A stretch of DNA of 64,000 nt from Betaproteobacteria bacterium (GTDB taxonomy: Bacteria > Pseudomonadota > Gammaproteobacteria > Burkholderiales > Rhodocyclaceae): NCBI GenBank assembly GCA_020621865.1, contig JAHRYW010000011.1:1-64000 (forward strand), written 5' to 3'. Below are positions 8,777 through 11,194 of the stretch, one piece after another; position 1 is the stretch's first letter; each line of letters opens with the position of its first letter. Both the position numbers and the translations under genes were made by a program. Under the pieces are notes generated by a model that was not told the origin of the DNA, did not search any database, and saw only the letters and a program-made list of their open reading frames with translations.

Positions 8777-9669
8777 CGCCGGCGACGGCGACTGCTGCCT
8801 GGTTGGCTGAACTGGCCGACCAGCGCCGGCTGTCGCCGCATACCGTTTCAAATTATCGACGCGACCTCGGCAAGCTGCTGGCGGCTGCTGGCGAAACCCC
8901 GCTGGCCGCCCTGCAGGTCCATCATGTTCGGCGCTTCGTTGCCCAGTTGCACGGCCAGGGGCTGAGCGGGCGTTCGCTGGCCAGGTTGCTGTCGGCCTGG
9001 CGCAGTTTCTTCGGCTGGCTGGGCGCGCGCGGCCTGATCAAGGCCAATCCCTGTGACGGCATCCGGCCGCCAAAATCGCCGCGTCTGTTGCCCAAGGCGC
9101 TATCGGTCGACGAGACGGCACGCCTGCTGGCGCCCGTCGATGACGATGACCCGATACAGGCGGCGCGCGATCTGGCGATGTTCGAACTGTTCTACTCCTC
9201 CGGTCTGCGCCTGGCCGAACTGGTGGCCCTCGATTGCGAAGCGCTGGACGGCATCGCCGACCAGGGCGAAGTGCGTGTGCTGGGCAAGCGCAACAAATTG
9301 CGCCTGGTTCCGGTCGGCAGCAAAGCGCGCGAGGCGCTGGCTGCCTGGTCGGCCGTGCGCGGCGAACTGGCCCGACCGGACGAGAAAGCCCTGTTCGTCG
9401 GCCAGCGCGGCGCCCGCATCAGTCCACGCATGGTCGAGTCGCGGCTGGCCCGGCGGGCCGTGCTGCTCGGCCTGCCGACCCATGTCCATCCGCACATGCT
9501 GCGTCATTCCTTTGCCTCGCACGTGTTGCAGTCCTCCGGCGACCTGCGGGCAGTGCAGGAAATGCTCGGCCATTCCAGCATCGCTTCGACGCAGGTTTAT
9601 ACCCATCTCGACTTCCAGCATCTGGCCGAGGTGTACGACGCCGCGCACCCGCGGGCCAAGGCCAAATAG
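8773..9669 (+). CDS. xerC: tyrosine recombinase XerC
   Basis: A 298-residue site-specific recombinase that with XerD resolves chromosome dimers at dif. The N-terminal SAM-like DNA-binding domain covers about residues 1-90. The catalytic domain shows the full set Arg146 (SGLRLAEL), Lys near 172, His241 and Arg244 (HPHMLRHSF), His267 (LGHSSI) and the nucleophile Tyr276. The start is GTG overlapping the DUF484 stop (GTGA). Its last codons and the TAG stop lie within a copy of the dispersed repeat. Confidence 0.96.
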   Translation: MTPATATAAWLAELADQRRLSPHTVSNYRRDLGKLLAAAGETPLAALQVHHVRRFVAQLHGQGLSGRSLARLLSAWRSFFGWLGARGLIKANPCDGIRPPKSPRLLPKALSVDETARLLAPVDDDDPIQAARDLAMFELFYSSGLRLAELVALDCEALDGIADQGEVRVLGKRNKLRLVPVGSKAREALAAWSAVRGELARPDEKALFVGQRGARISPRMVESRLARRAVLLGLPTHVHPHMLRHSFASHVLQSSGDLRAVQEMLGHSSIASTQVYTHLDFQHLAEVYDAAHPRAKAK

Positions 9670-9700
9670 CTACGGTAAGCGGCAAAAAAGGCCAAAAATC
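9661..9700 (-). repeat. dispersed ~40-bp repeat, degenerate copy
   Basis: Reverse-strand copy of the element: TTTTTGGCC, a T-run, GCCGCTT, then the core ACCGTAGCT with one change, and ATTTGGC. It overlaps the xerC stop codon. Confidence 0.7.
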
Positions 9701-9709
9701 AAGGCTTCG

Positions 9710-9738
9710 TTGACGATATAGCTCGCAGCCACTATGAT
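9710..9738 (+). promoter_or_regulatory. strong sigma-70 promoter for the 50-residue gene
   Basis: TTGACG (9710-9715), exactly 17 bases, TATGAT (9733-9738). Each box differs from consensus at one position. Transcription would start near 9745, about 33 bases before the start codon. Confidence 0.8.
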
Positions 9739-9777
9739 TCACGGTTTTGAAAAACTGCCGGATTCAAGGAGTTAGTC

Positions 9778-9930
9778 ATGGCCATCAACCGTAACCGCCG
9801 TTCTTCCCTGGAACGCCGCTGCGTTTCCAAGTCCACCAAGCGTCTGTTCAAGAGCACCGGCAAGACCATGTTCAAGGTCATGTACGCCGCCGAGTGCCAT
9901 CAGCGTAACCGCAAGGCCCTGGGCGCCTAA
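9778..9930 (+). CDS. small basic protein, 50 residues, unrecognised
   Basis: An open frame of 50 codons beginning MAINRNRRSSLERRCVSKST and ending RNRKALGA. It has 14 Lys/Arg against two acidic residues, two cysteines (15 and 40) and no hydrophobic segment long enough for a membrane span, so it may bind nucleic acid. Reality of the gene is supported by an AAGGAG ribosome-binding site seven bases before the ATG, a near-consensus promoter upstream and an intrinsic terminator 18 bases downstream, making a tidy single-gene unit. Codon use is that of a well-expressed gene. I do not recognise a family; a ribosome- or RNA-associated role is only a guess from charge. Confidence 0.82.
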   Translation: MAINRNRRSSLERRCVSKSTKRLFKSTGKTMFKVMYAAECHQRNRKALGA

Positions 9931-9947
9931 GCTTTAGCCAGTATTCC

Positions 9948-9988
9948 AAGCCCCGGTTGCCGCAAGGTGACCGGGGCTTCTTGCTTTA
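9948..9988 (+). terminator. rho-independent terminator
   Basis: Stem AAGCCCCGGT (9948-9957) pairs with ACCGGGGCTT (9970-9979), followed by a T-rich tail (CTTGCTTT). It closes the 50-residue gene and separates it from rlmI. Confidence 0.88.
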
Positions 9989-10003
9989 TAGATCGGGAAA
10001 AAC

Positions 10004-11194
10004 ATGGCTCAGCTGATTCTGCTGCCGGGCAAGGAACGTTCGGCCTTCAAGCATCACCCCTGGTTGTTCGCCGGCTCGGTTGGCCGGCTTGAAGGGCGTG
10101 CCCGGCCGGGCGATACGGTCGAGGTGCTGGCCGACAATCTGAAGCCGCTGGGGCGCGCCGCCTACAGCCCGAAGTCGCAGATCCGGGCGCGCTTCTGGAC
10201 TTTCGATGCCGACGAGTCGGTGGACGATGCCTTCTTCAAGCGGCGTATCGCGGCGGCCGTGGCCAGTCGTCAGGCGCTGCCGGAATTGCGCGGTCAGCAG
10301 GGCTTACGTCTGATCCATGCCGAATCCGACGGTCTGCCCGGCGTCATCGCCGACCAGTACGGCGACACGGTGGTCGTCCAGCTGACCTCGGCCGGCGCTG
10401 ACAAGTGGCGCAACGCCATCGTTGCCGGACTGGTCAAGGCCACCGGCTGCGCCCGCATCTATGAGCGTTCCGATTCCGACGTGCGCGGCCTCGAAGGGCT
10501 CGGCCCGACGACCGGCTGGATTTACGGCGAAGCACCGGAAACGCCACTGTCCATCGAGGAAAACGGGGTGCGCCTGGCGATCGATATCGCCGGCGGCCAC
10601 AAGACCGGCTTCTACCTCGACCAGCGTGACAATCGCGCCCTGCTCGGCCAGTTGTCGCCCGGCAAGGAGGTCCTGAACTGCTTCTGCTATACCGGCGGTT
10701 TTTCGCTGCAGGCGCTGGCCGGCGGTGCGGTCGGCGTGCTGTCGATCGATTCCTCCGGCCCGGCCTTGGCTCAGGCCCAGGCCAATCTGGCACTCAATCC
10801 CGCTTTGCCGGCCGAGCGCGCCGAATGGCTGGAGGCTGACGTTTTCCAGGCCTTGCGCGATTTCCGCAAGGCCGGGCGGACGTTCGACCTGATCGTCCTC
10901 GATCCGCCCAAGTTCGCCCCTTCGGCCGCTCACGCCGACCGGGCTGCCAAGGCCTACAAGGATATCAACCTGCTCGGCTTCAGGCTGCTCAAGCCGGGTG
11001 GCCTGCTGATGACTTATTCCTGCTCCGGCGGGGTCGGGCTGGAGCTGTTCCAGAAGATCGTCGCCGGCGCCGCGCAGGATGCCGGGCGGCCGGCGCGCAT
11101 CGTTCGCCGCCTGTCCGGCTCGGCCGACCATCCGGTGGCGCTGAACTTTCCGGAAGGCGAGTACCTCAAAGGCCTGCTCGTCCAGGTCGATTAA
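10004..11194 (+). CDS. rlmI: class I SAM-dependent rRNA methyltransferase, RlmI type
   Basis: A 396-residue protein with an N-terminal PUA-like RNA-binding domain (about residues 1-75), a central linker domain and a C-terminal methyltransferase (about 180-390). Motif I is NCFCYTGGFSLQAL and motif IV is LDPPKFAPS; the later Cys (SCSGGV) would be the catalytic residue of m5C enzymes. E. coli RlmI methylates C1962 of 23S rRNA, and the same target is likely here. It uses SAM produced by the first operon of the window. The next gene begins nine bases later. Confidence 0.9.
   Translation: MAQLILLPGKERSAFKHHPWLFAGSVGRLEGRARPGDTVEVLADNLKPLGRAAYSPKSQIRARFWTFDADESVDDAFFKRRIAAAVASRQALPELRGQQGLRLIHAESDGLPGVIADQYGDTVVVQLTSAGADKWRNAIVAGLVKATGCARIYERSDSDVRGLEGLGPTTGWIYGEAPETPLSIEENGVRLAIDIAGGHKTGFYLDQRDNRALLGQLSPGKEVLNCFCYTGGFSLQALAGGAVGVLSIDSSGPALAQAQANLALNPALPAERAEWLEADVFQALRDFRKAGRTFDLIVLDPPKFAPSAAHADRAAKAYKDINLLGFRLLKPGGLLMTYSCSGGVGLELFQKIVAGAAQDAGRPARIVRRLSGSADHPVALNFPEGEYLKGLLVQVD

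Follow-up and report, generated by a model that had tools for sequence, protein, structure and literature searches.

A one-gene unit in a Rhodocyclaceae genome encodes a small basic protein of an orphan, probably highly expressed family

What is made by a 50-codon gene that stands alone with a promoter, a ribosome-binding site and a terminator of its own, and what does the product do? Such a unit lies on the forward strand of the window analyzed here (64,000 nucleotides, positions 1 to 64,000 of contig JAHRYW010000011.1), where an earlier note, made from the letters alone, had described it as a near-consensus promoter, AAGGAG, a 50-codon gene and an intrinsic terminator. We found the unit at that place, with its signals largely kept in the same-genus copies. 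The promoter-like site (9710-9738) fits the consensus at 10 of 12 positions, with a -35 hexamer TTGACG (9710-9715), a spacer of 17 and a -10 hexamer TATGAT (9733-9738); one such site was observed in 9000-10600, against 0.2 expected from shuffles. All 34 same-genus copies have TTGAC[GC], and all 34 agree with the -10 consensus at four or more of its six bases (scored at the best-fitting spacer, 17). The Shine-Dalgarno sequence AAGGAG (9766-9771) ends 6 nt before the ATG, and SD-like words precede the gene in 130 of the 138 family loci that we compared (58 taken by handle and 80 by name; they are not independent, and some entered both ways). The gene occupies 9778-9930 (50 codons plus TAA at 9928-9930) and is followed by a predicted terminator hairpin of 14 pairs (9948-9979), with a T-rich tail to about 9987.

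The gene was said to sit between a repeat and rlmI; the downstream half of this placement held, the upstream half did not. The downstream neighbor is RlmI-like (best model NF011707, 419 bits, below the cut-off of 712), and the upstream neighbor is xerC (TIGR02224), which ends at 9669; the adjacent repeat was not found, since 9600-10010 holds no repeat of length at least 12 (a test of copies inside that interval). Among the 34 same-genus loci, with flanks of up to 1.5 kb, 30 have the rlmI-like gene and 28 have xerC; contig ends account for some of the missing neighbors.

The terminator call rests on comparison, because the scan of the window sequence by itself was not significant (one terminator found, 1.6 expected). 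Under a looser rule, a terminator-like hairpin lies within 200 nt of the gene in 29 of the 34 same-genus copies, versus 1.2 in shuffles; a stricter rule (within 130 nt) gives 11 of 34 and, over all family loci, 77 of 138 versus 6.8 in single-base shuffles. In three same-genus copies (L004, L017, and L032), about 105 bp of additional sequence separates the stop codon from the hairpin; in L004 and L032 this stretch has inverted ends (TTCCACGCCCG / CGGGCATGGAA), and it is possibly a small mobile or repeat element. Rfam yielded no match in 9000-10600 of the window at E 1, and none at gathering scores in five Alcaligenaceae-type loci.

The gene was found in 33 of 36 same-genus genomes (the own genome included); the three genomes without it are G003 (76% complete), G023 (74% complete), and G006, which is listed as 100% complete. 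For comparison we used 34 copies, 30 from the 34 same-genus places (those with loci returned) and four more from the order search, all of which differ in their DNA. Variation falls mostly on third codon positions: 35 of 45 columns are variable at position 3, compared with 18 at position 1 and 13 at position 2. We also ran the Ka/Ks check that had been proposed for this gene: over the 45-codon core, the median pairwise values are dN 0.088, dS 0.37, and dN/dS 0.23 (557 of 561 pairs, those with dS between 0.05 and 3), and the ratio of about 0.23 is likely an upper estimate because codon bias probably lowers dS. The conserved frame and its third-position bias, which bear out the selection suggested in the earlier note, indicate that purifying selection acts on a real protein-coding gene. 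On the reverse strand, ORFs of 49 and 42 aa overlap the gene (window 9732-9900); the forward-strand gene is favored over them because it is the forward frame that varies at third positions. Two equally scoring copies occur in G001 (contigs C37 and C38 of a fragmented assembly with 650 contigs), possibly as a result of strain mixture, and each of the other 32 positive genomes of the genus has one.

The encoded protein has 50 residues (5.8 kDa, pI 11.6), with 14 lysines and arginines, two aspartates or glutamates and two cysteines, so the composition given for it (14 Lys/Arg, two Cys) was accurate. It also has, as had been claimed, no recognized family: neither Pfam nor NCBIfam returned a match at E 10, and PHROGs returned none. 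A set of 17 family members likewise had no match in NCBIfam (E 1) or PHROGs (E 0.1), and in Pfam two models each matched one member, at E 0.077 and 0.2. AlphaFold predicts three short helices both for the window protein (residues 10-15, 18-23, and 29-47) and for a 42-residue relative, at moderate confidence (pLDDT 74 and 71, pTM 0.44 and 0.35, respectively). Foldseek searches of the PDB with both models returned nothing, and the sole PDB match by sequence profile was a designed protein at E 0.93, which we attribute to chance. Of the four segments tested for hydrophobic moment, three gave no support and the fourth reached p 0.008. The predicted models would fit a small domain with a disordered basic tail that folds on a partner, and they would fit other arrangements as well.

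Searches for relatives reveal what is, by sequence, an orphan family of basic proteins of 40-57 aa without a Pfam, NCBIfam or PHROGs model, sharing the core RxRR[NS]xxERR[CS]xxKxxKRx[FY]; the window protein has both this length and this core, and L213 is a divergent member that departs from the consensus at several core positions. In an alignment of 22 members, most of them from loci found without the motif, R5, R8, E12, R13, R14, and K21 are invariant, and R7, K18, R22, and F24 are nearly so. The 80 named loci do not test the core motif, because they were found by part of it (RR[NS][TS]LERRC[LVI]), so that this motif, its cysteine included, is present in them by construction. Members from the own family (in the taxonomic sense) have a C-terminal extension, mostly of the form Y.AEC....K..L, and most members from outside it end after about 42 residues; in the 22-member alignment the second cysteine is missing from these outside members. 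Cys15 is kept in 20 of the 22 aligned members and is replaced by serine in L021, L211, and L212, so that a thiol or metal site is unlikely to be essential.

In a sample of 399 genomes of the order, the gene is present in 46, the same 46 whether the search used the single protein or either of two profiles; with the profiles these genomes score at least 66 bits and the next at most 23.6 bits. The positives span seven family labels (f1, f3, f4, f10, f22, f38, and f43) in a sample with labels up to f50. In the own family, 21 of 150 genomes and 9 of 68 genera have strong matches (at least 46.9 bits), and in f4 the gene is carried by 113 of 121 genomes, including five of 0.8 Mb and one of 0.9 Mb; the f4 count is 113 after removal from 114 of a spurious match in G038 (21.7 bits), which lacks the ERR core, has no close start codon and runs antisense to a longer frame. 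The f4 genomes of 0.8 Mb we take, from their size, to be endosymbionts of the Kinetoplastibacterium type. The gene is mostly single copy, in the same-genus and f4 genomes alike. In the class sample (369 genomes), the one real match is the own genome. Rejected matches comprise seven weak ones at class level (at most 21.5 bits), which read as unrelated frames; ten further genomes of the order (at most 23.6 bits) and nine own-family genomes with weak matches alone (at most 16.8 bits), both rejected on score alone; and L031 in the own genome, which sits inside a larger ORF (E 0.38) and was omitted from the 58 loci taken by handle. Neither plasmids (queried with the protein of L047, a relative; E 0.01) nor phages (queried with the window protein; E 0.1) returned a match.

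Scanning named genomes, we confirmed 308 relatives and retained 80 of these loci, with 62 distinct proteins; Bordetella, Achromobacter, Pigmentiphaga, Castellaniella, Pelistega, Lautropia, Thiobacillus, and Hydrogenophilaceae are among their titles. Judged by record titles, the family appears to be confined to one order, the Burkholderiales in the broad sense, and f4 is probably the Alcaligenaceae, since its loci share their uvrA, glycosyltransferase, and ettA neighbors with those of Bordetella, Achromobacter, Castellaniella, and Pelistega. One record, L103, runs counter to the order limit: it is titled Lysobacter, and we suspect that it is mislabeled because its protein is identical to that of L104 (Betaproteobacteria), a transfer being the other explanation.

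The gene neighborhood changes with lineage. Over the 138 loci, for which flank length varies, the neighbors include ahcY (29), uvrA (28), metK (25), ettA (13), a glycosyltransferase gene (13), and msrB (8). The gene sits between metK and ahcY in the Thiobacillus and Hydrogenophilaceae records; it adjoins uvrA, the glycosyltransferase gene and ettA in Alcaligenaceae-type loci, and msrB, or erpA together with a tetR-type gene, in others. The genes xerC, metK, dapF, ettA, ahcY, and uvrA were checked by family scan (uvrA falling under the cut-offs where the locus is cut), and msrB, erpA, tetR, glycosyltransferase, and lpxL were named by inspection. We take the unit to be autonomous because its neighbors change by lineage while the unit itself stays; metK, dapF, and xerC, which occur both in the own window and near the gene in Thiobacillus-type loci, remain as traces of common descent. 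The ettA gene, whose product is by model name a ribosome-binding ATPase, follows on the same strand at a distance of 121 nt in L036 (own family) and of 209 nt in L048 (f4), and lies on the opposite strand in L157 and L159. A SAH riboswitch (RF01057; 63.2 bits, gathering score 37) lies directly behind the small gene and ahead of ahcY in L143 (6159-6251, forward strand), and riboswitch-like sequence is visible by eye behind the gene in L114, L128, L131, L134, L135, L144, L146, and L161.

How strongly might the gene be expressed? Its codon adaptation index is 0.91 when the reference is the ribosomal cluster of a same-genus genome, G253 (the own assembly being without that cluster's L22 gene). The 29 ORFs of this reference, EF-G and EF-Tu among them, have a mean of 0.70 and a maximum of 0.82, and the best of 37 window ORFs of at least 200 aa reaches 0.81, none attaining 0.91 (ORFs were chosen by length, and some background ORFs may be antisense). 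Synonymous draws from background usage never equaled the gene (0 of 5000; z 4.2), and the 34 same-genus copies range from 0.68 to 0.94, with a mean of 0.87. In seven further genomes, z is 5.4 (G313), 3.7 (G266), 3.4 (G302, where the reference holds 10 ribosomal ORFs), 3.2 (G133), and 2.1 (G056), and codon bias is uninformative in G352 (0.9) and in AT-rich G412 (0.1), a reduced genome; the small gene again exceeds every ribosomal ORF in G313 and G302 alone. The high expression that had been proposed from the signals is thus well supported, with codon usage at or above the ribosomal-protein level, five of the seven further genomes agreeing and two not; we read this as probable strong expression in most of the lineages tested.

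What remains is the function. Codon optimization, a consensus promoter and a tiny basic product, together with mostly single copy number, autonomous placement and retention in reduced genomes, suggest a stoichiometric partner of an abundant nucleic-acid machine. Its most likely site of action is the ribosome or some other machine rich in RNA, and of such machines the ribosome is the likeliest; we put the probability that it is ribosome-bound, as a ribosomal-protein-like or translation accessory protein, at about 45%. On this reading the product would be abundant and, as a ribosomal-protein-like or translation accessory factor limited to certain lineages, would bind the ribosome: the N-terminal tail, rich in arginine (RxRR...ERR), would grip rRNA, and the short predicted helices (10-15, 18-23, and 29-47) would pack on the particle, which they might stabilize or tune. 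This reading is supported by the size, the charge and the kept Arg/Lys pattern, by presence in 113 of 121 f4 genomes with reduced ones among them, by codon adaptation above that of ribosomal-cluster ORFs, and by an autonomous unit whose neighbors change; a weak hint in the same direction comes from ettA, which in two families closely follows the gene. Against it stand the lack of a PDB match by sequence or fold, the moderate AlphaFold confidence, the weak hydrophobic-moment support, codon bias that is uninformative in G352 and G412, and the presence of ettA in just 13 of 138 loci, sometimes on the opposite strand. The protein is not universal in the manner of core ribosomal proteins, being present in 46 of 399 genomes of the order and absent from the 100%-complete G006.

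The Arg-rich tail with its invariant arginines and glutamate, carried by a stand-alone unit with optimal codons, would also suit an abundant small regulator that binds RNA or RNA polymerase through this motif, like an RNA chaperone or antiterminator. We regard such a regulator as unlikely, though it deserves to be kept in mind: no single partner gene is kept adjacent, no family matches, and regulators seldom show codon usage above that of ribosomal genes, as this gene does. The more specific proposal of a hibernation factor, a small basic protein that silences or dimerizes ribosomes in the mode of RMF, is improbable. It draws on a size and charge similar to those of RMF and on HPF, the usual partner, which is present in 8 of 10 tested gene-carrying genomes; PMC5620080 states that gamma- and betaproteobacteria form their 100S dimers by means of short HPF together with RMF, so a place for such a protein exists in this group. 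However, the profile comparison with E. coli RMF gave a probability of 1.3% over 9 columns, no member matched the Pfam RMF model, and optimal codons with a consensus promoter would better fit growth-phase expression; G802 and G828 keep the gene and have no HPF match, which makes a pure HPF-partner role less likely.

A small nucleoid-associated, DNA-binding protein would likewise be basic and, by its codon usage, abundant, but there is no match to a DNA-binding family and the adjacency of ettA in some lineages leans, weakly, elsewhere; we hold this to be no likelier than a hibernation role. A redox or metal-binding protein built on the cysteines seems very improbable, for the conservation of Cys15 in 20 of 22 aligned members is countered by its replacement with serine in the three members named above and by the loss of the second cysteine outside the own family in that alignment. 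Least probable of all is a regulatory leader or small RNA with an incidental ORF: the predicted transcript is short (about 240 nt from promoter to terminator), but variation is mainly at third positions with dN/dS of about 0.23, the protein persists in several families with unrelated gene neighborhoods, and Rfam gave no match in 9000-10600 of the window or in the five Alcaligenaceae-type loci. The ribosome-bound reading remains the one that we prefer.

This gene, whose codon usage surpasses that of EF-Tu and of the ribosomal proteins of its genus, is near-universal in one family and persists in strongly reduced genomes; it matches no model in Pfam, NCBIfam or PHROGs and has no name in the papers listed by our search. 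If the protein is ribosome-bound, the ribosome parts list in these bacteria is incomplete; if it is not, there is an abundant RNA- or DNA-binding protein still to be accounted for. The strongest form of the first alternative, which we consider doubtful, is an unrecognized stoichiometric ribosome component that some betaproteobacteria (among them Bordetella, Achromobacter, and Thiobacillus) have, and that is kept even in genomes of 0.8 Mb; with its 42-50 residues, and missing from the common model organisms, such a component could have escaped notice. Among the matches listed in our search of the open-access literature, no paper on the family was found, and the family may well already exist as a "hypothetical protein" or an entry in a small-ORF catalog.

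Of the systems already described, S17 of Bordetella resembles the present gene: it too is a small ORF that has a promoter and a terminator to itself, comes from the same broad bacterial group, and lies beside a glycosyltransferase gene. According to the published description (PMC11722255), S17 is a 32-residue ORF between a glycosyltransferase gene and coq7, is processed to an sRNA, has a 27-nt core that is 100% conserved, and occurs also in Ralstonia, Aromatoleum, and Burkholderia. By that description we judge the present gene, with its 50-residue ORF and its other place, to be distinct from S17. RMF (E. coli b0953) shares the length of about 50 residues and the basic character, and differs in profile (hhalign probability 1.3%, 9 aligned columns), so that by sequence the small protein is not RMF. 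The small ribosomal proteins bTHX and bS22/Sra are lineage-restricted; the present protein differs in having no Pfam or NCBIfam match, and its role at the ribosome is predicted. It resembles them in being very short, basic and lineage-restricted, and in being encoded by a small gene with the codon usage of a ribosomal protein.
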